From a virus: a DNA stretch of 25,299 nt. Location: IMG/VR virus record IMGVR_UViG_3300007559_000023, positions 1 through 25,299 of that record. One strand, written 5' to 3'. A program made the position numbers and the translations under genes. The notes beneath the pieces are model-generated. The model was not told the DNA's origin. It saw only the letters and a program-made list of their open reading frames with translations, and made no database searches. The stretch's first letter is position 1, and the number at the start of each line of letters is the position of its first letter. Below are positions 1 through 23,159 of this stretch, one piece after another.

Positions 1-2859
1 GGAGCAACATTTAGTAATGGAATTGATATTGGTATACACCCATTCTACGATGCAATTTACCACCAAGTGGTAAATGGTTATAACCATTATGAAGTACTTT
101 CAGGAAATACATCCTATTATAGTAATGTTTTAAATGGTGGAATTAAAACAAGAGGTAAAATTAAATCAAACGGATTAAGATATTGGACATCTTTCGTTGA
201 TAATTCCAAATTTAACCCAACGGACTTAAGATATACAGTATTACCTTGCGATGGGGATAACAAATACGCCGATTTTAATAATATGGCAGAAATGGTTATT
301 AATACAGATTCATTCGATAGAGGTAATCAAATTTACTATAGTACGATTTGGGAAGATAACTACATCAATGGAGATTATAGTGGAAGTACTTTTTTCAAAT
401 ACAATGAATATAATACAAATACAAATGGAGATTATACCGTTGAAGGTAATACAAAAAAAGTTATTGATTTAATTGGAACATTTAGTCCGGCAATTTTAGA
501 TCAATTTGAAGATATATTTTTACAATTTGCAACTGAAAAATTAAATGAAGAAACCCCTTATAAGAAATTCTCCAAAGTAAAATATGATAATTTTCAAGAT
601 TTACTAAAAGGACTTCTTTCGGTTAAGAAAGAAACAACCGATGAAGGTAAAACATTTGAAGAACTTGTAAGTCTTATAAAAGACAGACAGTCTGAAAACA
701 AAATTAAGTTAACAGATGAAATTATAGATTATAGTAATTTATTGGAAATTAAATTAGGAAACCCAAAAGAACTTGACCCTTATATAATTGAAGGATTTGT
801 TGGCATTTCAGGCAACTCTTTAAAGTATGATCCATATAATTCATCACAATCTGTAAATTTAAAATACATTGAACTTTACGTTGGAGAGGATATTAGTGGA
901 CATTATTTAGATTTCTTTGTAAAAAATAATATTGAACTATCAGAAGAGAATGTTCTTAAGTTTAGACCGTTAATATTAATTTATGCGGGATATAGAGAGT
1001 CGGGTGGACCTGATGTTAAAAAGACATTCCAAGATTATGTCGGTAATACTATATTAAATGGTTTACCTTTTACGTTTGTGTTTACAAATGGGGTACCATT
1101 TGCTGTTCCGGCAACACCAGGAGCGAATCCAAGATATCAATTATTCCTTAGTTTATTGATTAGTAAGCTTGGAAAAATAACAAATAAAGAACAAGCTCAA
1201 TCTATAGATTTTGTTGATGGGTATAACAATAGAAACCTAAAAGTAGAAATATACAATTTCTTTAAATCGTTTAACGATAAATGGTCATCTGGTAATTCAA
1301 TAGGTCAAAGATTGTTAATGGAGGAATTTTTATTTTTAGATAAGGCGAATAAAGATATTGGGGATAAGGCTTATCTTAATTTAGATAGGTTTGTTTCAAT
1401 CATAAACCCAAAAAACGATAAAGCAAGTTTATATAGTGCAATTTCAATGTTAATACAAGGAAGTGGATTTGATATGAGAACCCTACCCGCTTATGTTAAC
1501 TTTTATGGTAATGGATTAACAACAAGAAGTAAAATCACTCCATCACATACAGTTGCAAATAATTTGTTTGGAACATTTTTAGAAGTCGATTACCAAGAAT
1601 CATCACCTAAAACTGTTATTCAATTTGCGGGACCAACATCTAAACGTCCTTCAGATATGAATAAAAACTATAGATTTAGTGATGATAGTTTTAATATATC
1701 GGACGTTAATAACAACCCATTAATCGTAACGTTACCTAAAATTTTTGATACTGAGAATTTATCTAAATCAAATAAGGTAGTTGCGTTCGAAGTTAGTTTT
1801 GGTGACCAAAACCAAAGTATGTTCAAAGGAGTTACTTTAGATCAATCAACAATTAAAAACACATCAGAATCTTTTGTTGTGTTAGAAAACTTAGCGAGAT
1901 CAGAATCTGGAGCGGGAACATATAATGTTGACATTGGATTATTTGATTACTATAGACAAGCGTCATATCAATGTGAAGTTACGTGTATGGGTAATGTTAT
2001 GATACAACCAACAATGTTCTTCTATTTGAAAAACATCCCTATGTTCCGTGGTTCATATTGGATTACTGAAGTTAGTCATAGTATTAGAAATAATTCAATT
2101 ACGACAACATTTAAAGGAAGTAGAATACCACAAGCTAGTCTACCAGATCCAGAAGATTCGTTTGTATCAAGTTATAAAGCGTTGTTTGATAAATTACTTT
2201 CAAAAGCTAAAACCCAAACAGAAGCAATTTCATCTGGAAAAGTAAGTACAGAACAACCATTATCAATTCCTGGTAAAGGCGACTTTACTATTGATAAGGG
2301 TACGGTTAAAATATCAGGAGAGGAACAGATAAATGAAGTTGGTATCACATCATTCGGTATTCCATATAATGGATTCAATAATGAGAAATATATTCAAAAA
2401 GTTAAATACAAAGGTGGAGATTGGTTTAGAGCTGTCGTAGCAAGAATGGGATCGGAAGCATACCCAATAGCAGACGACACTCATATGGCCATTGTTAGTA
2501 GATTTAAAAATCAAGTTGTTACCGATAAAGACGGTAATGGTGGATTATCTTGGGGAGAACTTAAGAATTATTCAAAAACACAAAATTTTTATTCGACCAA
2601 ATTTATATTACAAAGTAACATCACTCCTGACCATATTGGGACAGGAATTACCACATTCTTAAATCCAGACGATGGTACCGAAAAGACAATAACCCCATCA
2701 TATTCTTTAAATAGAACACTATCAGGGTCACCATTCAAAGCCGAAGGACCAGTTAATATCGGACCAAGTGTAAATGGATATGGTATAGCGTTATCGGATT
2801 CACTTATGAAATTATTAAATACCCACGAAGGACGGGTTATCTATTTTATGATTAAATAA
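1..2859 (+). CDS. Putative baseplate hub/tail protein with possible C-terminal cell-wall hydrolase domain (5' partial)
   Basis: The reading frame is open from base 1, so the gene begins upstream of the window; the GTG at 67 is only an internal codon. 952 codons are visible, ending in TAA. Most of the protein is unrecognisable beta-rich sequence. Around window residues 660-705 a stretch (CMGNVMIQPTMFFYL, then FRGSYWITEVSHSIRNN and TTTFKGSR) resembles the end of gpD/late-control-type baseplate hub proteins, where a glycine-containing strand, 'G-Y-I-T-x-V-x-H' and a final 'T-x-F-x-x-R' are typical. Near the C-terminus (nt 2431-2520) the spacing E-A-x9-A-I-x5-N-x-V matches the core of SleB-like cell-wall hydrolases, with E encoded at 2455. 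An EF-hand-like loop, DKDGNGGLSWGE, follows at 2524-2559. Hub identity and hydrolase role are inferred from motifs. The gene sits upstream of small virion-like genes, which fits a structural role. Confidence 0.5.
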   Translation, partial: GATFSNGIDIGIHPFYDAIYHQVVNGYNHYEVLSGNTSYYSNVLNGGIKTRGKIKSNGLRYWTSFVDNSKFNPTDLRYTVLPCDGDNKYADFNNMAEMVINTDSFDRGNQIYYSTIWEDNYINGDYSGSTFFKYNEYNTNTNGDYTVEGNTKKVIDLIGTFSPAILDQFEDIFLQFATEKLNEETPYKKFSKVKYDNFQDLLKGLLSVKKETTDEGKTFEELVSLIKDRQSENKIKLTDEIIDYSNLLEIKLGNPKELDPYIIEGFVGISGNSLKYDPYNSSQSVNLKYIELYVGEDISGHYLDFFVKNNIELSEENVLKFRPLILIYAGYRESGGPDVKKTFQDYVGNTILNGLPFTFVFTNGVPFAVPATPGANPRYQLFLSLLISKLGKITNKEQAQSIDFVDGYNNRNLKVEIYNFFKSFNDKWSSGNSIGQRLLMEEFLFLDKANKDIGDKAYLNLDRFVSIINPKNDKASLYSAISMLIQGSGFDMRTLPAYVNFYGNGLTTRSKITPSHTVANNLFGTFLEVDYQESSPKTVIQFAGPTSKRPSDMNKNYRFSDDSFNISDVNNNPLIVTLPKIFDTENLSKSNKVVAFEVSFGDQNQSMFKGVTLDQSTIKNTSESFVVLENLARSESGAGTYNVDIGLFDYYRQASYQCEVTCMGNVMIQPTMFFYLKNIPMFRGSYWITEVSHSIRNNSITTTFKGSRIPQASLPDPEDSFVSSYKALFDKLLSKAKTQTEAISSGKVSTEQPLSIPGKGDFTIDKGTVKISGEEQINEVGITSFGIPYNGFNNEKYIQKVKYKGGDWFRAVVARMGSEAYPIADDTHMAIVSRFKNQVVTDKDGNGGLSWGELKNYSKTQNFYSTKFILQSNITPDHIGTGITTFLNPDDGTEKTITPSYSLNRTLSGSPFKAEGPVNIGPSVNGYGIALSDSLMKLLNTHEGRVIYFMIK
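2524..2559 (+). other. EF-hand-like Ca2+-binding loop within the hub-like CDS
   Basis: The codons encode DKDGNGGLSWGE. This matches the canonical 12-residue EF-hand loop: acidic or oxygen ligands at positions 1, 3, 5 and 9, G at 6, a hydrophobic residue at 8 and E at 12. The flanking residues could form helices. Only one copy is seen, whereas EF-hands usually pair, so it may be a solitary calcium loop or a coincidence. Confidence 0.4.
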
Positions 2860-2886: not shown

Positions 2887-3108
2887 ATGTATATCTTAAA
2901 AATTATGGAAAATAATAAAATGAACGACAGTATTAATCAATTCTTAAAACCAAAACAAGTTAGAAATGTTTCTAATGACGGTATGGAAAGAGAAGAATGT
3001 GATATGTTAACAGGAGAATGTTATACTATCAGAGAAAAAGACGGTATAGTTGAAAGAATAAATAAAAAATATATTACCAACGACGGTAGACAATTATTAC
3101 AAGATTAA
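2887..3108 (+). CDS. Small phage protein of unknown function
   Basis: 73 codons from the ATG at 2887. In-frame alternative starts at 2905 (MENNK) and 2920 (MNDS) would give 67 or 62 residues; 2905 is attractive because its context (AAAAATTATGG) resembles other starts here. The protein is polar, with no membrane segment or signal peptide. The C-terminal half (CDMLTGECYTIREKDG, then VERINKKYITNDGRQLLQD) looks like a compact, well-conserved small fold with two cysteines about seven residues apart. I do not recognise the family. It lies between the hub-like gene and a proline-rich coiled-coil gene, four bases before the latter, so it is probably co-transcribed with virion genes. Confidence 0.7.
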   Translation: MYILKIMENNKMNDSINQFLKPKQVRNVSNDGMEREECDMLTGECYTIREKDGIVERINKKYITNDGRQLLQD

Positions 3109-3112
3109 AACT

Positions 3113-3745
3113 ATGTTAGAGAAAAAATTACACGACGAGTTGAAGCGTTACAAACAAATCAACAAATATGGTTCTAAGATGATTATGGAACAAGAAGTTC
3201 CAGAACCACCAATGGACCCAGCAGCACCAGTTGACCCAGCGGCTCCGGTAGATCCGGCAGCGCCAGTTGACCCAGCGGCGGCACCAATGGACGCACCAGA
3301 AGAAACCCCAATGGACGGAGGTACTGAAGAAATTGATATTACTGATTTAGTTAATATGACTAAAAGTATCAAAAACAACATCGACGACAATAAAGCGGAT
3401 CACGTATCTGTTTTAAACAAAATGGATGATGTATTCAGTAAATTAACAGACCTCGAGGCTAAATTAGGTGAAATGGACCAAGTGGTTGCTAAAATTGACC
3501 AATTGGGTGCTCAAGTACAACAAATGAAACCAGAAACACCTCAAGAAAAACTTGAAATGCGTTCTTTGGATTCATATCCATTTAATCAAAGACCGAACGA
3601 GTTCTTTAGCCAAAAACAAGGTGAAATGAGAGCTTCTGGTAAGAATGAGTATGTTTTAACTAAACAAGATGTTCAAGACTACTCACCAGATACTATAAAA
3701 ACGTCCTTTAACTCAGACCAAGAAGAAAATGAATTTAAGTTCTAA
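3113..3745 (+). CDS. Proline-rich, coiled-coil acidic protein, probably virion-associated
   Basis: 210 codons. Residues 1-30 are basic and helical. Residues 36-60 are a low-complexity linker of tandem PAAPVD hexapeptides ending in PAAAPMD. Residues 70-145 are rich in heptad-like hydrophobics (DLVNMTKSIKNNI, LNKMDDVFSKLTDLEAKLGEMDQVVAKI in part), so a coiled coil is likely. The C-terminal 65 residues are polar and end in ENEFKF. There is no enzyme motif. Architecture (helix, flexible Pro/Ala spacer, coiled coil) suggests a structural, scaffold or assembly protein, but this is inference. The start follows the upstream stop by four bases, and the last 17 bases overlap the next gene in another frame, indicating a tight operon. 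Confidence 0.75.
   Translation: MLEKKLHDELKRYKQINKYGSKMIMEQEVPEPPMDPAAPVDPAAPVDPAAPVDPAAAPMDAPEETPMDGGTEEIDITDLVNMTKSIKNNIDDNKADHVSVLNKMDDVFSKLTDLEAKLGEMDQVVAKIDQLGAQVQQMKPETPQEKLEMRSLDSYPFNQRPNEFFSQKQGEMRASGKNEYVLTKQDVQDYSPDTIKTSFNSDQEENEFKF
3218..3292 (+). repeat. In-gene tandem hexapeptide repeat (PAAPVD)n
   Basis: Three 18-bp units encoding PAAPVD are followed by a variant PAAAPMD. The units differ at synonymous positions (CCA/CCG, GCA/GCG/GCT, GTT/GTA, GAC/GAT), so the peptide is conserved more than the DNA. The tract is markedly GC-richer than its surroundings. Confidence 0.85.
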
Positions 3746-4100
3746 TGTAAACTTTTTATTAGGTTTACAAATACAAATGAAGATTAACCATTGGCAAACT
3801 AAAGGGTTTGCTAGACACAACGCATTTGGTGGATTTTACGATTCATTAAGTGCATTAATCGACACATTTGTCGAGTCTGCAATGGGAAAATACGGTAGAT
3901 TTACTTTAGACGAAGAGACTAAAACAATTCAATTGAGTAATCTTTCAGAATTAGATATGAAAGGTTTAGTTAGTACCGTTAGAGAATCTTTAGTTCAAAT
4001 GTCAGAACAATTGGAACCATCAGATACTGATTTATTAAACATCCGTGATGAAATATTAGGAGAATTAAATAAATTATCGTATCTTTTAACATTGGAGTAA
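3729..4100 (+). CDS. Dps/ferritin-like small protein (DUF5856-type)
   Basis: 123 codons, starting inside the end of the upstream gene. The N-terminal half reads like helices A and B of Dps: H21-W22, K25-G26, H30, then I44-D45 and E49. In E. coli Dps the ferroxidase ligands are H51, H63, D78 and E82. The H-x14-D-x3-E spacing is identical here (H30, D45, E49), while the first two histidines are three residues closer. The C-terminus (DLLNIRDEILGELNKLSYLLTLE in two parts) resembles the last Dps helix. At 123 residues it is shorter than Dps (about 165). From memory it matches a viral family catalogued as DUF5856. Possible roles are iron/peroxide handling or DNA protection, or a ferritin-like fold reused structurally; function is inference. 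A strong terminator follows. Confidence 0.75.
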   Translation: MNLSSNVNFLLGLQIQMKINHWQTKGFARHNAFGGFYDSLSALIDTFVESAMGKYGRFTLDEETKTIQLSNLSELDMKGLVSTVRESLVQMSEQLEPSDTDLLNIRDEILGELNKLSYLLTLE

Positions 4101-4133
4101 AAAACCAAAAAACTTTTTTTAAAAAACTTTAAG

Positions 4134-4159
4134 CCGGATTTCGTAATCCGGTTTTTTTT
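4134..4159 (+). terminator. Intrinsic terminator after the Dps-like gene
   Basis: A perfect 7-bp stem, CCGGATT (4134-4140) with AATCCGG (4145-4151), has loop TCGT and is followed by eight T residues (4152-4159). It separates the upstream virion genes from the replication cassette. The preceding bases (4107-4130) contain two A6CTTT-type direct repeats of unknown meaning. Confidence 0.9.
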
Positions 4160-4203
4160 GTCTATATTTTATCTATAACAGTTTATAACTTAAATTAACA
4201 ATT
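4160..4203 (+). promoter_or_regulatory. Probable promoter region of the replication cassette
   Basis: This AT-rich gap lies between a terminator and the first replication gene, so a promoter is expected here. A TTTG at 4157-4160 and TATAAC-like boxes at 4174-4179 and 4185-4189 can be seen. None gives a clean match to the Bacteroidetes TTTG/TAnnTTTG consensus. The TATTTAT element found before tail genes is absent. The start context is TTAACAATTATG. Confidence 0.35.
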
Positions 4204-5046
4204 ATGTCAACATTTGATGCAGTACTAGCACAGTACGAGAAAAACAAGAACGCCACAAGTGGCAACGCAAACAGAGTATCCCAAGAGGATAGGATGAAGA
4301 AGTACTTCGTAACGATACTTCCTAAAGGTTCAAAAGGTGAAGAGAGAAGAATTCGTATTCTTCCCACACCAGACGGTTCATCTCCATTTAAAGAGGTGTA
4401 CTTCCACGAAGTTCAGGTGGATGGAAAATGGGTTAAATTATACGACCCAAAACAAGAAGGTAAACGTTCCCCATTAAATGAGGTTCACGAAGGATTAATG
4501 ATGACAGGTGTTGAGTCAGACAGAGAATTGGCTCGTCAGTACCGTTCACGTAAATTCTACATCGTAAAAGTTATCGATCGCGACCAAGAACAAGATGGTC
4601 CAAAATTTTGGAGATTTAAACACAACGCCAAGGGAGATGGTATTTTAGACAAAATCTTCCCAATCTTTAAAAACAAAGGTGACGTTACCGACACTCAAAA
4701 AGGACGTGATTTAATCATTTCTTTGACCTTAACTAAGGCGGGTACCGGTAAAGAGTACACTTCAATTAATTCAGTTATTCCTGAAGATGCGGGTCCATTA
4801 CACACAGATGATAATGTGGCAAAAACTTGGTTAGAAGACGAATTGACTTGGTCAGACGTTTATTCTAAGAAAAGTGAAGACTACTTAGAAATGGTGGCTA
4901 AAGGTGAAATTCCACGTTGGGATAACGAAACAAAAAAATGGGTTTCAAACTCTTCAAATGAAGAAACTATCGGAACACAAAAACCAGTAACTCCAGTGGT
5001 AGACCCACAGGATGATGCTGAGGTAGACGAAGATTTACCGTTCTAA
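4204..5046 (+). CDS. 32: gp32-like single-stranded DNA-binding protein with bacterial-type C-terminal tip
   Basis: 280 residues (T4 gp32 has 301). It would coat ssDNA during phage replication and recombination. The N-terminus is basic and helical; the core carries family-typical segments such as RRIRILPTPDG, WVKLYDPKQEGKRSPL and YIVKVIDRD. T4 gp32 binds zinc through one His and three Cys, but this protein has no cysteine at all, so it must fold without that site. After a low-complexity linker (about residues 245-268) the tail is acidic and ends DDAEVDEDLPF. That ending is like the DDDIPF/DDLPF tip of cellular SSBs that binds partner proteins, and unlike T4 gp32. First gene of the replication cassette, followed by a hairpin and uvsX. 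Confidence 0.9.
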   Translation: MSTFDAVLAQYEKNKNATSGNANRVSQEDRMKKYFVTILPKGSKGEERRIRILPTPDGSSPFKEVYFHEVQVDGKWVKLYDPKQEGKRSPLNEVHEGLMMTGVESDRELARQYRSRKFYIVKVIDRDQEQDGPKFWRFKHNAKGDGILDKIFPIFKNKGDVTDTQKGRDLIISLTLTKAGTGKEYTSINSVIPEDAGPLHTDDNVAKTWLEDELTWSDVYSKKSEDYLEMVAKGEIPRWDNETKKWVSNSSNEETIGTQKPVTPVVDPQDDAEVDEDLPF

Positions 5047-14852: not shown

Positions 14853-14898
14853 TTCTTATTATAATGGAAAATAGTCTGCTTTCTATTTATTATAAGAA
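14853..14898 (+). other. Long imperfect hairpin over the start of the 1255-aa gene
   Basis: TTCTTAT (14853-14859) can pair with ATAAGAA (14892-14898), extended by two more pairs after a T-T mismatch, and AAATAG (14869-14874) pairs with CTATTT (14883-14888) around the loop TCTGCTTT. The first base of the start codon is in the stem. It may control translation or be chance in AT-rich DNA. The same span holds a 16-codon ORF (14864-14914) overlapping the start in another frame. Confidence 0.35.
14884..14895 (+). promoter_or_regulatory. TATTTATTATAA element upstream of the 1255-aa gene
   Basis: This 12-mer is identical to the one at 22224-22235 before another structural gene. It ends two bases before the ATG at 14898. 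It could be a late promoter giving a nearly leaderless message. It overlaps the 3' arm of the hairpin described at this locus. Confidence 0.35.
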
Positions 14899-17800
14899 TG
14901 ATACAAAAACATAGAATTTCAACGAATATTGGTAAAGACCAAATTTTAAAAGTCGAACTTAAACAAGATTTCGATTTATTAGAGATTTTGTCTTTAAAAT
15001 TCACACAAAAAGATATATACACATCTCTTTGTGCTGATTATGGTGTGGTTTGTGGTAGAATCACCGTTAACAACGGTTTAGGTGTTCCAAACGCTAGAAT
15101 TTCTATTTTTATACCGTTAGACGAAACGGACGAACAAGACCCAGTCATTTCAACATTATATCCGTTTAAAACGGTTAATGATAAGAATGAGGACAATTAC
15201 AGATACAATCTATTACCATCAAGAAAACAACACGGAGGACACGAACCAACAGGTACATTTTTTGACCAATCAGATGTTTTAACGAGAGAAGAAGTTTTAG
15301 AGGTCTACGAAAAATACTACAAATACACAGTAAAAACTAACAGTGCGGGAGATTTTATGATATGGGGAGTTCCATTAGGTGAACAAACAATACACGTAGA
15401 TTTAGATTTATCCGACATTGGTTGTTTCTCTTTTAGACCTTATGATTTTATAAAACAAGGTTTAGGTCCCGACCAATTTAAAAATACTTATTCTTTTAAA
15501 TCTTCAGTAGATTTAGATTCATTACCTCAAGTAGTATCATTTAATAAATCAATAGAAGTTTATCCATTTTGGGGAAACGAAGATATTTGTGAAATTGGTT
15601 TAACAAGAACTGATTTTGATTTATCAGAAGTTGGTGTTAAAATTGAACCTAAAGCCTTTTTTATTGGGGGAACATATACCGACACTGGTAAAAATTCTGT
15701 AAATAAAAATTGCCAACCAAGACGTAAAATGGGTCGTAAATGTGATTTAACAACAAAAACGGGTACCATTGAGGCGATTAGATATACACCAAACAAAGAT
15801 GAGAATAATAGACCTAAAATAGAGGTTTATGATATTGAAGAAGACATTCCAGAAGATGGTTCGTTTGTATTTCCGGTCCCAATGAATATGGATTATGTCT
15901 TTACAAACGAATTTGGTGAAAATGAAATTACAAATGACACCAATAAAGGAGTACCAACGTCGAGTTGTTATAGGTTTAGATTTTCATTAGATGACGCAGG
16001 TAACTCAAGAACTAGAAAAACCGCATCTTATTTAGTACCTAACATTAGAGAATATTCGGCAGAGGCCGATAAGTCGTATGCCTTTTCCACCAATTACTCC
16101 GACTATCCGTCAGCTGCGGTTTCTGATAATGTTGATAAAGGAATGTTATATAATGAATTGGGTCAATATAATCCTAGAGATTATTTTTATAGAATGACAT
16201 ATAATAAAGTTTACACTATGTCATCTTTTCAAAATATACACTATCTAGGAAGTAGTTTTAGTAACGATAGGTATGTTGGATTGAAAGAAATCGTTCCAAC
16301 AGAAGAAGAGGATTGTTCAAATGACATTGTAACTCCACCTGTTAATTTTGGTAAAAAGAATTTTACATTTACTTTATTGATAGCTGACGTGTTATTATTT
16401 TTTGAACAATTAATCAACCTTGTTACATTAACTTTCTTTAATACAATTGCAAAGGTTTTCCATAGATTCGCTGATGCAACTAACTTTAGACCAATTAGAA
16501 AATTATCTAGAAGAATTAGACATTTTGCTTACCAAATACAAGATTCAACACAACGAACACTTTATTTAATATCGTATCCAGGATGTGAGGAATGTAATAC
16601 CAATGAATTGGGTGAACAAGGAGGTATAGGAACTACGTTAACATTTTGTGAAGTTGGAAAACTAAAAATAAATGGTAAGGAAAGTCAAACTGATAGAATA
16701 TTAACCGCTTATGATATTACATTTTCGGTACCCGATAATGGTGAATGTGCATTAATCGCAACACCAATAATCGACACTGTAGATTTCATCAGTAGACAAA
16801 GTGATTATATATTAACATTTAAAGAAATACCAGATGCGGACGATCCAGAAGATCCAGAATTAATTACAAATGAGGAATTTGCGGTGGCAATAACTTCTAC
16901 ATCTTTTTCATCTGTTTATAACCCCGTAACAAGTGGTTATACGTTTACGTTTAATGATAGTTCGCAAACCTTTTCAGATATTTCAGTTCCATATGAAGTT
17001 ACAATAAGAGATAAAAACGCAACATCCACTGGATTTTCTATAGTAGTACCAGTTGAAAGTGAGTGTGAAATTTTCGACGTTCCATATGATGAATCGTTGG
17101 TTAGTGTTTATTACGTAGGTACAGGTACGACAAGAACCGAATCCGCCACCTATACACCAGGTATGAATGTAAGTGGGTCAAAAATATCTGATTCTGGTTA
17201 TCGTTTACCAACCGACTATAGAGGTAACCGATATTCACCATCAACACTATCTGGGTTTTGTGAATTTGAAAATGGGCAATTTCATATTGTACCTGGTTCA
17301 TTGTCAGGAGGTAGGTTATTTAACATACTGAGAGAATATAGAAAAAGAAAAAGAGTTGGAAAATTATTTTGTGGTGGAATTGTAAATTATTCATTTGTTG
17401 ATAATTGGTTATCAGGATCATTATATTTCTTTCTTTTTAAGGGGAGAAGAGGTAGGTTTTGTAGTCAAATTATAAGATATGTTACTGAACAAGGTAGATA
17501 CTATTATAGGTCAGCGTTATATAATAACTCATCAAATGTATGGGGTGACCCAAGTAAAGGTTCAAGAATAGGTAGACCAACAACAATGGTAGATTTAGGA
17601 CCTAGAGATGAATTTATTAAAGAAATTTGTCTTGACCCATCGTTAGACCCTAACTGTTCCGTTACTCGTCAAATAGGACCCACCTCTTTTCAAAATTTTG
17701 GAGAATTATTAGGATTAGCTATTAACTATAGATTAGACACAACGAACGCTAACCACGATATAAATGATTTTTTTGATAATAGTGGTTTTGGTTATACGAA

Positions 17801-18665
17801 TCAGGTTTTTGATGGAGACTTATTACAACTCATATCAATAAACAACGAAGCAGGTATTGAAGAATTTGATTTACAAAACCCAAAATATCTCGGATATAAT
17901 TATCAAAATTTAGACCCAGAAGTATTTCCTCAAGTTTTTAAAAATGGTACTAACGTTTGGGGACCTTTACCAGTTACATTTTATTTGGAAGATGACGGTG
18001 AAAGAGTAAGGGCGTGTCTTAATGAACCAACACACATTGCCAATGATGGAATAACAAGGGTACAAGGAAGACTTACAGAATCATCACAAAAAGTACCATT
18101 CTTCCTATGGGATAAAGGAGCACCTGGATTTGGACCTTATAATATCACTACGGTTGACAATCAAAGTTGGGATTATGGTAATATACAAGTTCAACCATTA
18201 CAGGGTATGACATATGGATATAATTTAACGAGTCCCGCTGATGATTCTAGTGACAAATACTTACTACTACCTATAACATATACGTTTAGTGGATTAACAA
18301 TCCCAACTGATAACGCAACTAACGAGGTAGAATTTGACGTTGTAGATGTTACTGCCGACAATCACAGTGCGTATGATAATGAGTATCCTGGATTTACTTA
18401 CCTCTATGCATCTAGTGGGTCCATATCGTCACCTGCGGCTGGAATCCTATACACAAGATATGGTACTAGTGGTACTTGGGATGTAAAACCTTGGGATTTA
18501 ACTGACGATTTTATTATTAGAAGGACACAAGATTACTATAGTGGTAATAAACAAATCCTATCAACCCCATTTATGTTCTATTTTGGATTGAGGGTTGGTA
18601 AAACGGGTGTAGATAAGTTTATTCAATTTTTCGGGGATAAGGGAGCCTTTACATCTGCAGAATAA
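14898..18665 (+). CDS. Very large putative tail/baseplate protein with carboxypeptidase-regulatory-like domain
   Basis: 1255 residues. I do not recognise the whole protein. Residues about 50-170 resemble a carboxypeptidase-regulatory/transthyretin-like beta-sandwich: VCGRITVNNGLGVPNARISI, then an insertion of about 55 residues (about 85-140), then YTVKTNSAGDFMIWGVPLGE. Such domains often mediate surface adhesion. Residues about 488-522 are strikingly hydrophobic (FTFTLLIADVLLFFEQLINL and onward), followed by an arginine-rich stretch (RKLSRRIRH). There are 19 cysteines, including GCEEC, NCQPRRKMGRKC and several GxC/ExC pairs, unusual for a cytoplasmic virion protein. Later parts look like Ig-type strands. 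It sits directly after gp6, where T4 has gp7, but shows no gp7 signature I can see. Probably structural, in the baseplate periphery or fibre network. Confidence 0.8.
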   Translation: MIQKHRISTNIGKDQILKVELKQDFDLLEILSLKFTQKDIYTSLCADYGVVCGRITVNNGLGVPNARISIFIPLDETDEQDPVISTLYPFKTVNDKNEDNYRYNLLPSRKQHGGHEPTGTFFDQSDVLTREEVLEVYEKYYKYTVKTNSAGDFMIWGVPLGEQTIHVDLDLSDIGCFSFRPYDFIKQGLGPDQFKNTYSFKSSVDLDSLPQVVSFNKSIEVYPFWGNEDICEIGLTRTDFDLSEVGVKIEPKAFFIGGTYTDTGKNSVNKNCQPRRKMGRKCDLTTKTGTIEAIRYTPNKDENNRPKIEVYDIEEDIPEDGSFVFPVPMNMDYVFTNEFGENEITNDTNKGVPTSSCYRFRFSLDDAGNSRTRKTASYLVPNIREYSAEADKSYAFSTNYSDYPSAAVSDNVDKGMLYNELGQYNPRDYFYRMTYNKVYTMSSFQNIHYLGSSFSNDRYVGLKEIVPTEEEDCSNDIVTPPVNFGKKNFTFTLLIADVLLFFEQLINLVTLTFFNTIAKVFHRFADATNFRPIRKLSRRIRHFAYQIQDSTQRTLYLISYPGCEECNTNELGEQGGIGTTLTFCEVGKLKINGKESQTDRILTAYDITFSVPDNGECALIATPIIDTVDFISRQSDYILTFKEIPDADDPEDPELITNEEFAVAITSTSFSSVYNPVTSGYTFTFNDSSQTFSDISVPYEVTIRDKNATSTGFSIVVPVESECEIFDVPYDESLVSVYYVGTGTTRTESATYTPGMNVSGSKISDSGYRLPTDYRGNRYSPSTLSGFCEFENGQFHIVPGSLSGGRLFNILREYRKRKRVGKLFCGGIVNYSFVDNWLSGSLYFFLFKGRRGRFCSQIIRYVTEQGRYYYRSALYNNSSNVWGDPSKGSRIGRPTTMVDLGPRDEFIKEICLDPSLDPNCSVTRQIGPTSFQNFGELLGLAINYRLDTTNANHDINDFFDNSGFGYTNQVFDGDLLQLISINNEAGIEEFDLQNPKYLGYNYQNLDPEVFPQVFKNGTNVWGPLPVTFYLEDDGERVRACLNEPTHIANDGITRVQGRLTESSQKVPFFLWDKGAPGFGPYNITTVDNQSWDYGNIQVQPLQGMTYGYNLTSPADDSSDKYLLLPITYTFSGLTIPTDNATNEVEFDVVDVTADNHSAYDNEYPGFTYLYASSGSISSPAAGILYTRYGTSGTWDVKPWDLTDDFIIRRTQDYYSGNKQILSTPFMFYFGLRVGKTGVDKFIQFFGDKGAFTSAE

Positions 18666-20476
18666 TGGAAAAAAAGAAAATCATATTACCAACAAAAAGA
18701 TTCTTCAAATCAAATGAGGAGGATTTAAATCTAAGAATTAATTTAGATGAAACAGAAGCGTTATTACGTGAGGGAGATAGGGATATAGTATTGGATGTAC
18801 CAACACAATTTGAAACAGAAAGAACCGAAAGTAACAATTACAAGATTCACGGAAAACTTAAAATGGTTTTTAGGAATCTATATTCTGGAACAACATCATT
18901 CAATCCCTTACTTAGAAAATTATATCTTCCAAATGATGGTTTTGGAATTGCTAGTGGGTTTTTACCATACAACGAATTCTCGTTTTTAAGAAATGATGTT
19001 GTTAGAGAAGTTAACACACCTAATCAGGGCACAAGTCTAACTTCATTTAGTCAACAATTGACATTATCTGAAATACCAGAACATACATTAGTAACACCAA
19101 TAACCGCACCATATCAAAATTGGAACATTTACTTGTCATATGTTTATGGTAAAGATAGTGACCACAAAATTAATTACACTTTAAGTGGTGGTACAACTGG
19201 AACAACATACACAGCAACAGCAAAAGATGGTATTCCGTTTAGAGTTGTTAGTGATGGTAATTATTATTCACTTGTTTCACCCGTTGAACACGGAATATCT
19301 GCTGGAGAATATGTTACAATTTCAACAACTGGAAATACATTTTATGTACCGTCAGGTACGGGGTATACAACTACAACTAGTTTATCTGGTAGAACTTTTT
19401 ATGTTGAAACAGTTGGGAATGCAACACATAATTCTGAAAAATATGTTTTAAATATTTTAAAGAGTGAATTTGTAAACGGTACCACTTTGGGTCCTGTTGT
19501 TTTTGGTAAAAGATGTATTGATAAGAACAATATAACGGATACCATTTCAGAATATTATGTACATAAACATAAAACATTAACTAGCGATTCTGACTATATT
19601 TTAGATAAAGCCGGGTTTGAAAATTCTATTTGGGAGGATGAGAAAAAAATACTATTTGAAAATGCATTAGGTGATAACGACGTAATTGTTGAAAGAAATA
19701 GAATGGAATCATTAATTTATGATTTTAAAAATCCATTAACAGTAACTGGAATTACAAATAATTTAGGGTACACACCAACAGAGGTTTATGTATCAGTTAT
19801 CCTTAAAAATGGTAACGGATATTTTAATTACCCACCAAAAGTCGGGTATAAATTTAATTTTCACAATACTTGGATTGATAACCACTTCAACGGTAACACA
19901 TCTGTGGAAAGTGGAATTACAACGACAACTATTTCTTCAAATGCTAGTGGTTATACATTTACAGGAGGAACATCATTACCTATTGGTACAATATTAACAG
20001 GTGCATTTGTGGAGTATAATAATAGTGAAATGAAAGAAACAATAATAAGTGAATCTTTTCACAAGTTTACTGCAAGAGTAGATTTATTTAATCACGGACA
20101 AACTGGTAGTACTGTAAATTTTTCTGGAGTTACATCTACAAATCAAAGTGGATTATATTATCAACCGCACTATAGGGTTAAATTAAGACAACTATCACCA
20201 TATATCGAAACTTCAAATACAGATGACATTTATAATTTACCAGAAAATTGTAGATATTTTGAAAACGATGGATTATGGAAATGGAGAGATGTGTACGACC
20301 CAGGATTTATCGATTTTGAAGGAAATGGAGTAGATTATCCATTTACTAATAATATACATTATATAAAAAATGATATTAATTTCTATTTAAGAAACGAGGA
20401 GTTTTATAGAAATAAAACAGATGGAATAACTGGATTCAACAATAAACCCGGAGGATCAAATACAACTGATTGTTAA
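18665..20476 (+). CDS. Putative virion structural (tail/baseplate) protein
   Basis: 603 residues, starting on a TAATG overlap with the previous stop. Mostly beta-rich and threonine/glycine-rich. Residues about 209-220 (HGISAGEYVTIS) match the 'HG-x-x-x-G-x-x-V-x-I' strand-turn seen in many phage tail proteins, followed by TFYVETVGN. Near the C-terminus, YFENDGLWKWRDVYDPGFID and GVDYPFTNNIHYIKNDINFY form a distinct conserved-looking end domain. No enzyme motif, signal peptide or membrane segment. The location among tail genes indicates a virion role; exact function is unknown. Confidence 0.75.
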   Translation: MEKKKIILPTKRFFKSNEEDLNLRINLDETEALLREGDRDIVLDVPTQFETERTESNNYKIHGKLKMVFRNLYSGTTSFNPLLRKLYLPNDGFGIASGFLPYNEFSFLRNDVVREVNTPNQGTSLTSFSQQLTLSEIPEHTLVTPITAPYQNWNIYLSYVYGKDSDHKINYTLSGGTTGTTYTATAKDGIPFRVVSDGNYYSLVSPVEHGISAGEYVTISTTGNTFYVPSGTGYTTTTSLSGRTFYVETVGNATHNSEKYVLNILKSEFVNGTTLGPVVFGKRCIDKNNITDTISEYYVHKHKTLTSDSDYILDKAGFENSIWEDEKKILFENALGDNDVIVERNRMESLIYDFKNPLTVTGITNNLGYTPTEVYVSVILKNGNGYFNYPPKVGYKFNFHNTWIDNHFNGNTSVESGITTTTISSNASGYTFTGGTSLPIGTILTGAFVEYNNSEMKETIISESFHKFTARVDLFNHGQTGSTVNFSGVTSTNQSGLYYQPHYRVKLRQLSPYIETSNTDDIYNLPENCRYFENDGLWKWRDVYDPGFIDFEGNGVDYPFTNNIHYIKNDINFYLRNEEFYRNKTDGITGFNNKPGGSNTTDC

Positions 20477-21294
20477 TGGAAATTTTAAGAGATAATAACA
20501 ATAAAAAAATCATTTTAAATCAGGACTTAAATTTTAGAACAGATTTAGGGTGGGAAGATTCTGCAAAAGAATTAGAGTCACAAACTTTACGTAAAATAAT
20601 TAACCCAATTGAAAATTACGAAACGGTTAGGTATATTCATAAACCATACAATACAACATTAGGGAGTTTAACATTCCCACAAACCGATATATGGTTTTAT
20701 TTTTATTTTTTAAGTGGGTCAACATACGTACAAGACTACGAACCAACTGGACTATCAGCAAATGAAAACGCGTTAATGGAAAAAAAAATCACTAATAGTT
20801 TCTTTAGGTTGGAGTTTTTTAAAACACCTAGTAAAATAGTAAACAATGTTGAAGTAGCTGACCAACCAAGTAGATTAAATAGACGAATGGTGTTTGCAAA
20901 AAACCTTTCATTACCGTTAGGTGAAAAATATTTTTATACTACTTTAAACGATTATATATATAAACCCGCATTTATGGGTTCAAATTATAGAAACAAAGAA
21001 AATATGTATTTCTTTTGGTTTCAAGACGAAACCGCACTTAATGAGACATCATTAACTGGTAATACATTTTGGATGACCGCAAAATTTTATAATGCGGAAG
21101 ATGGATCAATAGGTGATTTTGTTAAATCGGATATCGGAACTTCAGAAGTTAATGAAAGTAATGATATGTACTATAAAGTGGTAATTGATAAAAGTGATTA
21201 CTCCTACCAAGTTTTTCGTTATAATAATAACACACAAGGAACTAGAATAGGTGAAAGTAATGACCCAATAAAATTCTATCAGAAAAAAGGATAA
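20476..21294 (+). CDS. Putative virion structural protein
   Basis: 272 residues from the ATG at 20476, which shares its A with the upstream TAA (TAATG). A TTG six bases earlier is also possible, but the ATG overlap matches neighbouring junctions. The sequence is rich in aromatics (WFYFYFLSGSTYV, MYFFWFQDE, YFYTTLNDYIY) and beta-prone throughout, as in trimeric baseplate or fibre-attachment proteins. No recognised domain. It ends in another TAATG overlap with the following gene. Confidence 0.72.
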   Translation: MEILRDNNNKKIILNQDLNFRTDLGWEDSAKELESQTLRKIINPIENYETVRYIHKPYNTTLGSLTFPQTDIWFYFYFLSGSTYVQDYEPTGLSANENALMEKKITNSFFRLEFFKTPSKIVNNVEVADQPSRLNRRMVFAKNLSLPLGEKYFYTTLNDYIYKPAFMGSNYRNKENMYFFWFQDETALNETSLTGNTFWMTAKFYNAEDGSIGDFVKSDIGTSEVNESNDMYYKVVIDKSDYSYQVFRYNNNTQGTRIGESNDPIKFYQKKG

Positions 21295-22217
21295 TGCAAT
21301 CAAGTAAATACGAAATATTAAAACAAACGGGAACCACATTTAATTTACCACTTTATTTAGAGAGTAGTGTAGATGAAATGGGTGTAATGGTTGGATTTGA
21401 TGGTGAAATACAACAAGTTGAACAATTAGTTAATTTTTCGTATTCAGGAGTAACGGGAACTAAAACCGTGCACATATACTCAACAACCAATCCCGATAAA
21501 TTAAGAAAAATAGTTGATCAAGTCTATAGTGTTAATTGGGGAGATAATAGTTCGGTGGTACAATTACCCATTAATAATGGAATACCTAATTCAAATTTAC
21601 CAACCTTATCTCACACATATGGAATTGGAATAGTTGAAAGTACGATAACTATAACACTAAATTCTCCTTGGTCGACTCAGATTATTTCAAAAAACATTTC
21701 ATTACCGTTTTTAAATCCGTCTACAATTAGTAACCCTTTGGGTTCATTTAGTGGTGTAACGATGCCAATCGAAATTGATTATATAAACAATTTAGATAAT
21801 TCTACAGACCCAACGGCAAATGCCACGATTAAATTTATGGGTATTGGTAAAAGTAGAATTGAGGAATTAAGAAAATATGGTCAAACAACATTTAATGGTG
21901 TAACAACGGGAACTACCGACGGTTCTAGTTGGAGTGGATACACTTTAGATAATCTTTATTATCGTGACTTTAATGATGGTTATACAATGATTACGGGTAG
22001 TACATCTAGTTTTACCAAAGAAGAGGTAATCAATAGAATGATTACAAGAAATGAACATTTTATAGGATTTATTGACGAACCAACGATATACTCCGACATT
22101 TTTGTTGAGAGAGGAAAACAAGGTGTTATGGAGAAAAATTTAAGATTAGGAGAAATTGACAACATTGGTGAGGTAGACATATATGGAAATGGATATTTTA
22201 ATGTGAGAAAACAATAA
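21294..22217 (+). CDS. Putative structural protein with PKD-like domain
   Basis: 307 residues, starting on a TAATG overlap. Residues about 79-122 resemble a PKD/Ig-like domain: VNWGDNSS, then a loop, then LSHTYGIGIVESTITITL, matching the 'V-x-W-G-D-G-S ... H-T-Y' pattern. Such domains occur in surface and tail-fibre proteins and often mediate carbohydrate or protein contact. The C-terminal half (RIEELRKYGQTTFNG, TIYSDIFVERGKQGVMEKN, LRLGEIDNIGEVDIYGNGYF) looks like a separate conserved module. Expected in the tail or baseplate; precise role unknown. Confidence 0.72.
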   Translation: MQSSKYEILKQTGTTFNLPLYLESSVDEMGVMVGFDGEIQQVEQLVNFSYSGVTGTKTVHIYSTTNPDKLRKIVDQVYSVNWGDNSSVVQLPINNGIPNSNLPTLSHTYGIGIVESTITITLNSPWSTQIISKNISLPFLNPSTISNPLGSFSGVTMPIEIDYINNLDNSTDPTANATIKFMGIGKSRIEELRKYGQTTFNGVTTGTTDGSSWSGYTLDNLYYRDFNDGYTMITGSTSSFTKEEVINRMITRNEHFIGFIDEPTIYSDIFVERGKQGVMEKNLRLGEIDNIGEVDIYGNGYFNVRKQ

Positions 22218-22223
22218 AAATTA

Positions 22224-22235
22224 TATTTATTATAA
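22224..22235 (+). promoter_or_regulatory. TATTTATTATAA element upstream of the 305-aa gene
   Basis: An exact copy of the 12-mer at 14884-14895, in the only non-overlapping junction of this part of the tail block (24-bp gap). It ends six bases before the ATG at 22242. The coincidence of gap and motif suggests an internal late promoter. Confidence 0.4.
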
Positions 22236-22241
22236 AAAGTT

Positions 22242-23159
22242 ATGGCAGTAGGAAGTTACGGAATAATTAGACCAGCGGATGTATCCCCAGCGGACGTAGA
22301 TGTTTTTTATCATTACGTTCCAAATAGAACATCAACTGCGGAGGTAACCTTAAAAAAGTTAAACTCAGAAGAAGTCCTTGCTCCAGTTTTTCATAACGGA
22401 GATACCACAGATAGTACGGACGCTCCAAACGTTGAAATTTTAGGTGGTTTATACAACTTAACACTAACTTCAGATGATTTTAGTGATTTGGGTATATATA
22501 CACTTCATATTAGACCAAAACAAATTAGAACCTCAATCACAGATTGTGGTATTTTAGCTTCATTACCTTCTGTTAGAGGTTTAGTTATCGATTTAAGTAC
22601 TGTTCCATCGGCAGATAGAAACAAATTTACACCACAGGGATTAGTGGGATATCGTATTGAATATTTAAATTCCAACGATAATACTAAAGTTCCAAATTTT
22701 TATAGAATAGTAACATCATCTTTTTATTGTACACCAGTGGTTTCAAACTTAACTAGTACAACGCAAAAGGCGATTAGATACCAATATAGTGTTGCGGCTT
22801 CAAATTTATTATTTTTAACTGTAACACCATCTTCGGCACCATCAAGTAGACCGAATGTGGTTCCTTTTATTGGACAACCAGGACAAAATATCATTTTAAC
22901 CAATACATTCTTTAACCCAACAACAGTTGAAGTAGAAATGGTTGAACACGATTCGTCAACATTGGCTTACGCATTATATGGTAACCAAAGTAAGGCGGTG
23001 TCTTCAGGTATCTATACCATTTACGATAACAATAACAATATCTTCAAACAATACAATCTATACGAGGTTAAAGATGAGTTTAACGAAACTTTATTCGAGA
23101 TTAGAGAGAACAAGACGGATATTGATGAGACATTAAATTTCGATGATATTACACAATAA
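22242..23159 (+). CDS. Putative virion structural protein
   Basis: 305 residues. Beta-rich, with a likely small N-terminal domain (SYGIIRPADVSPADVDVFYH) followed by Ig-like strands (GLYNLTLTSDDFSDLGIYTL, HIRPKQIRT). The C-terminal third is polar (YTIYDNNNNIFKQYNLYEVK, DIDETLNFDD). It contains no catalytic motif or signal peptide. It starts after a possible internal promoter and ends by a TAATG overlap with the gp7/tail-protein-I-like gene, so the two are probably translated together. Confidence 0.72.
   Translation: MAVGSYGIIRPADVSPADVDVFYHYVPNRTSTAEVTLKKLNSEEVLAPVFHNGDTTDSTDAPNVEILGGLYNLTLTSDDFSDLGIYTLHIRPKQIRTSITDCGILASLPSVRGLVIDLSTVPSADRNKFTPQGLVGYRIEYLNSNDNTKVPNFYRIVTSSFYCTPVVSNLTSTTQKAIRYQYSVAASNLLFLTVTPSSAPSSRPNVVPFIGQPGQNIILTNTFFNPTTVEVEMVEHDSSTLAYALYGNQSKAVSSGIYTIYDNNNNIFKQYNLYEVKDEFNETLFEIRENKTDIDETLNFDDITQ

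Follow-up and report, generated by a model that had tools for sequence, protein, structure and literature searches.

Dps is a bacterial iron-oxidising protein that protects DNA. Its ferroxidase ligands are H51, H63, D67, D78 and E82, which converge only across the dimer, and the BC helix is an element at the dimer interface. Dps forms a dodecamer, in which the ferroxidase sites lie where the two subunits of a dimer meet, and it oxidises Fe(II) with H2O2 or O2. A Lys-rich N-terminal tail is present in E. coli Dps and absent from several other Dps. Members of this group (PF00210), such as E. coli Dps, Dlp-1 (1ji5) and B. subtilis MrgA (2chp), have a four-helix ferritin fold with HW ending helix A and are about 150-167 amino acids (aa) long. 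Ordinary Dps proteins are also encoded by phages of Lactobacillus and Streptomyces and by gut phages, where protection from oxidative damage was proposed (PMC6669764, PMC8008677). These phage-borne proteins match bacterial Dps directly by BLAST, whereas the family analysed here, DUF5856, is separate and reaches Dps by profile comparison only.

The window, by which we mean the whole stretch of DNA analysed (25,299 nt), is a fragment of a T4-like phage. It encodes a gp32-type single-strand DNA-binding protein, a UvsX-like recombinase, a 5′-3′ exonuclease, a DnaB-like helicase, NrdB and NrdA, as well as gp25 and gp6-like baseplate proteins. After the gp6-like gene, five large co-directional ORFs without a convincing family match occupy positions 14898-23159. 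The CDS at 3729..4100 (+ strand, as are all window features below) encodes a compact Dps-like protein of 123 aa, as judged from family matches, an AlphaFold2 model, Foldseek and a profile search.

Membership and distribution of the DUF5856 family

The window protein matched DUF5856 (PF19174) over the full profile (1-94) with 66.5 bits, against a curated cut-off of 34.6, and PHROG 858 with an E-value of 3.4e-16. PHROG 858 is annotated as 'starvation-inducible transcriptional regulator', a name evidently derived from Dps-type proteins. Pfam catalogues the family only as a domain of unknown function, as the earlier note had supposed, and a literature search by the name DUF5856 found no paper.

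In an annotated phage collection, relatives of the window protein were found in 972 records and relatives of a T4-like DUF5856 member in 1378 records, RI.-1/MobD.6 of T4-like phages among them. Those T4-like members share only about 25-30% identity with the window protein and lie in another gene neighbourhood. A scan of an environmental viral collection gave at least 600 stretches, with 589 confirmed relatives among the matches listed. A single relative was found in 84,980 bacterial and archaeal species scanned with patterns biased to the HWQT subgroup, so that bacterial relatives with another motif could be missed. This lone prokaryotic relative sits on a 5.8-kb contig of a metagenome-assembled genome, and the contig may itself be viral. 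DUF5856 is common among T4-like phages and nearly missing from bacterial genomes; unlike Dps, it occurs almost exclusively in viruses.

Dps-type ligand residues and predicted fold

The earlier note had read a Dps-type ferroxidase pattern in this gene. All the residues that it named, H21-W22, K25-G26, H30, D45 and E49, were present in the 123-aa translation of 3729-4100. The H-x14-D-x3-E spacing was the same as in E. coli Dps (H63/D78/E82), and the HW-to-H interval was indeed three residues shorter, with a His-His distance of 9 in the window protein and 12 in Dps. The motif HW..H-x14-D-x3-E is beyond chance because it occurred in 0 of 300,000 shuffles of the window protein; the looser H..H-x14-D-x3-E occurred in 88 of 300,000.

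A search of PDB sequences with the window protein as a single sequence gave nothing relevant, and only a profile reached Dps. This profile, of 39 viral DUF5856 members, matched Dlp-1 (1e-5), a Dps-family protein (6.8e-5) and MrgA (8.4e-5), the Dps matches in PDB sequences spanning E=1e-5 to 1e-3. E. coli Dps was weak in the same search (E 0.16). Profile-profile comparison with a ten-sequence Dps alignment gave E=5.6e-7 (probability 92). By these two comparisons, the sequence homology to Dps exceeds chance. In the profile alignments, H21-W22, G26, H30, D45 and E49 paired with the Dps motif, with a three-residue gap in the A/B loop. Four of the five Dps ferroxidase ligands are kept: H21 (H21-W22 at 3789..3794 corresponds to H51-W52), H30 (3816..3818; H63), D45 (3861..3863; D78) and E49 (3873..3875; E82). 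At the site of the fifth, D67, the window protein has a glycine, G34 (3828..3830).

Among 155 distinct relatives, some of which share only about 25% identity with the window protein, the only invariant residues were H21, H30, D45, E49 and D107. The H/H/D/E set, on whose conservation the Dps-like reading had been made to depend, was thus kept in 155 of 155. W22 was kept in 90%, and position 26 was mostly G or S. Position 34 was G in 81% and otherwise D, A, N or E, with D in 15 of the 155; in T4-like members it was mostly D or N, in contrast to the window protein. The D67 column varies in the comparison Dps set too, with E or Q in two. The His-His distance was 9 in 146 relatives, 10 in 4 and 13 in 5, so that the shortening between helices A and B is a loop variation. 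DUF5856 variants with a longer A/B loop were seen in L247, L236 and L269 (contigs of 358, 300 and 26 kb) and in L276; one longer-loop example, HWQTQKKPGSFAQH, has a His-His distance of 13, compared with 12 in Dps.

The AlphaFold2 monomer of the window protein (pLDDT 95.2, pTM 0.87) had four helices: helix A (residues 3-23, 3735..3797), with H21-W22 at its end; helix B (residues 27-55, 3807..3893), bearing H30, D45 and E49; helix C (residues 77-92, 3957..4004); and helix D (residues 100-119, 4026..4085), which includes the invariant D107 (4047-4049). When this model was compared with the PDB by Foldseek, the top 50 matches were almost only Dps, with a probability of up to 1.00 and a TM-score of up to 0.72. 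The Foldseek E-values were 0.09 or worse, as expected for a short helical bundle. A T4-like relative was modelled with a pLDDT of 89, and its best Foldseek matches were also mostly Dps. The proposal of a minimal four-helix ferritin-like protein was borne out by this four-helix monomer and its nearest solved structures. In a viral structure library, folds similar to the window model were predicted in the giant viruses Fadolivirus (A0A7D3V608) and Pithovirus LCPAC404 (A0A481ZC29) and in a 713-aa protein called NUDIX hydrolase (A0A8S5MNG7); a protein called prohead protease (A0A6J7WIS1) gave a weak match.

The last helix was present in the model, but the claim that it is Dps-like gained little support, because this region aligns ambiguously. 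HMMER aligned D107 with the first D of the Dps D-x2-T-x-D motif, whereas a full-length profile alignment put D99, not D107, at that place. We had considered D107 as a replacement of the lost D67 ligand or as a match to the conserved Dps aspartate; since the two alignments disagree, we draw no conclusion on D107.

The window protein differs from Dps in several further respects. It has no BC helix in the B-C loop of the model, only a 3-residue turn at 72-74, and the BC helix was likewise absent from the model of the T4-like relative. No extension that could be a Lys-rich tail precedes helix A in the model, and the protein is acidic (net charge -7, pI 4.7; family median charge -7). The missing D67 ligand, in the window protein and most of the family, and the BC helix missing from the model count against a Dps-like role. 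Because these two Dps features were not found, we place the family beside Dps and not within it. We consider it rather likely that DUF5856 is a compact, virus-specific sister family of Dps in the ferritin superfamily, which would oxidise and sequester iron.

Such a protein would dimerise as Dps does, and H21 and H30 of one subunit with D45 and E49 of the other would form the metal site. There, Fe(II) would be oxidised, H2O2 being the most likely oxidant as it is for Dps, and Fe(III) would be retained. With glycine at the D67 site, the first iron site (H21, D45, E49) would be complete and the second weakened in the window protein. Near phage DNA, this chemistry would take away the reactants from which damaging hydroxyl radicals arise. 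Such protection from iron-peroxide damage would act in the host cell during infection and perhaps, for some lineages, within the virion as well.

Gene neighbourhood and links to the phage head

The DUF5856 gene stands at the end of a block. The block begins with a large ORF with a weak tail-protein match (67..2859); the frame of this ORF is open to the left end (1-2859), and the N terminus of its product therefore probably lies beyond the window. A conserved 73-aa ORF (2887..3108) and an ORF for a 210-aa Pro/Ala-rich, coiled-coil-like protein (3113..3745) follow, and after the DUF5856 gene a hairpin resembling an intrinsic terminator (4131..4154) closes the block ahead of the gp32-type gene (4204..5046). 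This order was kept in the window clade wherever the locus covers it, with the 210-aa ORF directly upstream of DUF5856 throughout. The start of the DUF5856 gene overlaps the 210-aa ORF by 17 nt, and the overlap was the same 17 nt in 23 of 30 relatives with the upstream ORF, suggesting translational coupling of the two. The gap between DUF5856 and gp32 (4101-4203) varied, and some relatives had about 0.5-1 kb extra there. The 210-aa protein has a very conserved C-terminal tail (EKLEMRSLDSYPFN...SGKNEYVLTK). No family match was found for it, and neither its ORF nor the large upstream ORF had relatives in the annotated phage collection.

The earlier note had raised the possibility of a fold repurposed in the virion. 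This gained support from relatives, not from the window itself. In larger contigs of the window clade, the head genes were about 50 kb from the DUF5856 gene, so that we rejected the window gene as part of a head cluster. No head-processing signal adjoining it was found in this clade.

In the Chryseobacterium phages MA9V-2 and MA9V-1, on the other hand, the DUF5856 domain is inside the ORF of an S77 prohead core protease (L083, 2627-6250, which is OR513085.1 166979-170602; L280, 2501-6544). This ORF sits between a capsid assembly (portal-like) gene and the major capsid gene. The MA9V-2 polyprotein has 15 [hydrophobic]xNE[SAG] motifs in 1207 aa, whereas other proteins totalling 29,353 aa have 25. 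Two of these 25 are close to the N terminus of the major capsid protein, at 21 and 59, a region in which cleavage by a T4-type prohead protease is expected. One motif copy in the polyprotein comes right after the last residues of the DUF5856 domain (YLMTLNE/S), at the point where free-standing members end. From these putative cleavage sites we infer that the domain may be released inside the prohead. A search of viral contigs found no close relatives of this domain, so that the fusion is known from two related isolates with the same host strain. A 1044-aa hypothetical protein, MA9V2_236 (L173, 37771-40905), carries 9 copies of the same putative motif and, judged by these copies, is possibly another processed head-internal polyprotein.

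CsCl-purified virions of the T4-like Klebsiella phages ValerieMcCarty03/04 yielded 26/27 spectra for gp108/gp100, named 'starvation-inducible transcriptional regulator', a number similar to that for the DNA end protector (20/17); the preparations held 135-153 proteins, so that carry-over is possible (PMC13119998). We checked the identity of gp108 of ValerieMcCarty03 and found it to be the DUF5856 gene. In some lineages, the DUF5856 protein is probably carried in the virion, the head being the likely site. That the window phage carries its own in the virion is conceivable, though we doubt it.

These links could also mean that the Dps fold was repurposed as an internal virion or scaffold part, in which H/H/D/E would keep the dimer together or bind zinc or another structural metal, with no ferroxidase turnover. 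Besides the protease fusion and the detection in virions of relatives, the loss of the D67 ligand in most family members would fit such a part, as would the place of the window gene at the close of a block starting with a weak tail-protein match. However, it is exactly the ferroxidase residues that were kept while nearly all else drifted, and a site with a structural role alone should allow more changes. We therefore regard this explanation as unlikely.

Role of the family

The gene context of the T4-like members suggests a different explanation, an accessory regulator of lysis timing, as was proposed for T4 RI.-1. In T4-like phages the gene directly follows and overlaps the antiholin gene rI, and lysis inhibition ends slightly later when T4 rI.-1 is overexpressed, as summarised in a review (Golec et al. 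2010, in PMC6832632). However, the neighbours in the window clade and in the Microcystis and Chryseobacterium phages are unrelated, and phage RaK2 has the DUF5856 gene without T or RI homologues (PMC3622015). The slight effect and the presence of the gene in a phage lacking T/RI suggest that lysis control is indirect or lineage-specific, and the fold and ligand set shared with Dps likewise suggest an indirect effect. We give lysis timing as the primary role a low probability.

The homology to Dps, a nucleoid protein, would also allow compaction or coating of phage DNA. The family member in the Klebsiella virion proteome was listed among DNA-associated proteins (PMC13119998), and in the window the gene adjoins the gp32/UvsX replication genes. 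The negative charge of the window protein and of the family, and the absence of an extension before helix A, argue against DNA coating, which we rate slightly below the lysis role. Since the protein is acidic and without a lysine tail, protection would be via iron chemistry rather than by coating. Chance resemblance in an unrelated helical bundle is strongly disfavoured: helical bundles are common and the Foldseek E-values alone are weak, but the independent profile statistics, the ligand invariance and the absence of the full motif from all shuffles speak against it.

The iron-oxidising sister family of Dps is thus the reading that we prefer. The recognition of DUF5856/RI.-1 as a separate, virus-specific, compact branch of Dps with a connection to the head appears to be new. 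With it, a family that has members in well over a thousand phage records acquires a biochemical role that can be tested; among these records are those of T4-like phages, whose RI.-1 has so far been known only as a minor accessory lysis-inhibition protein. On this reading, many phages would have a defence of their own against iron and peroxide. At least one lineage ties this defence to head assembly, which would offer a new idea on the protection of packaged or newly injected DNA. More tentatively, DUF5856 might be a virus-specific ferroxidase family whose members, from RI.-1 of T4 to those of huge phages, enter the head together with the genome. If so, virions would have Dps-like protection of their own, or would pass it on to the next host at injection.
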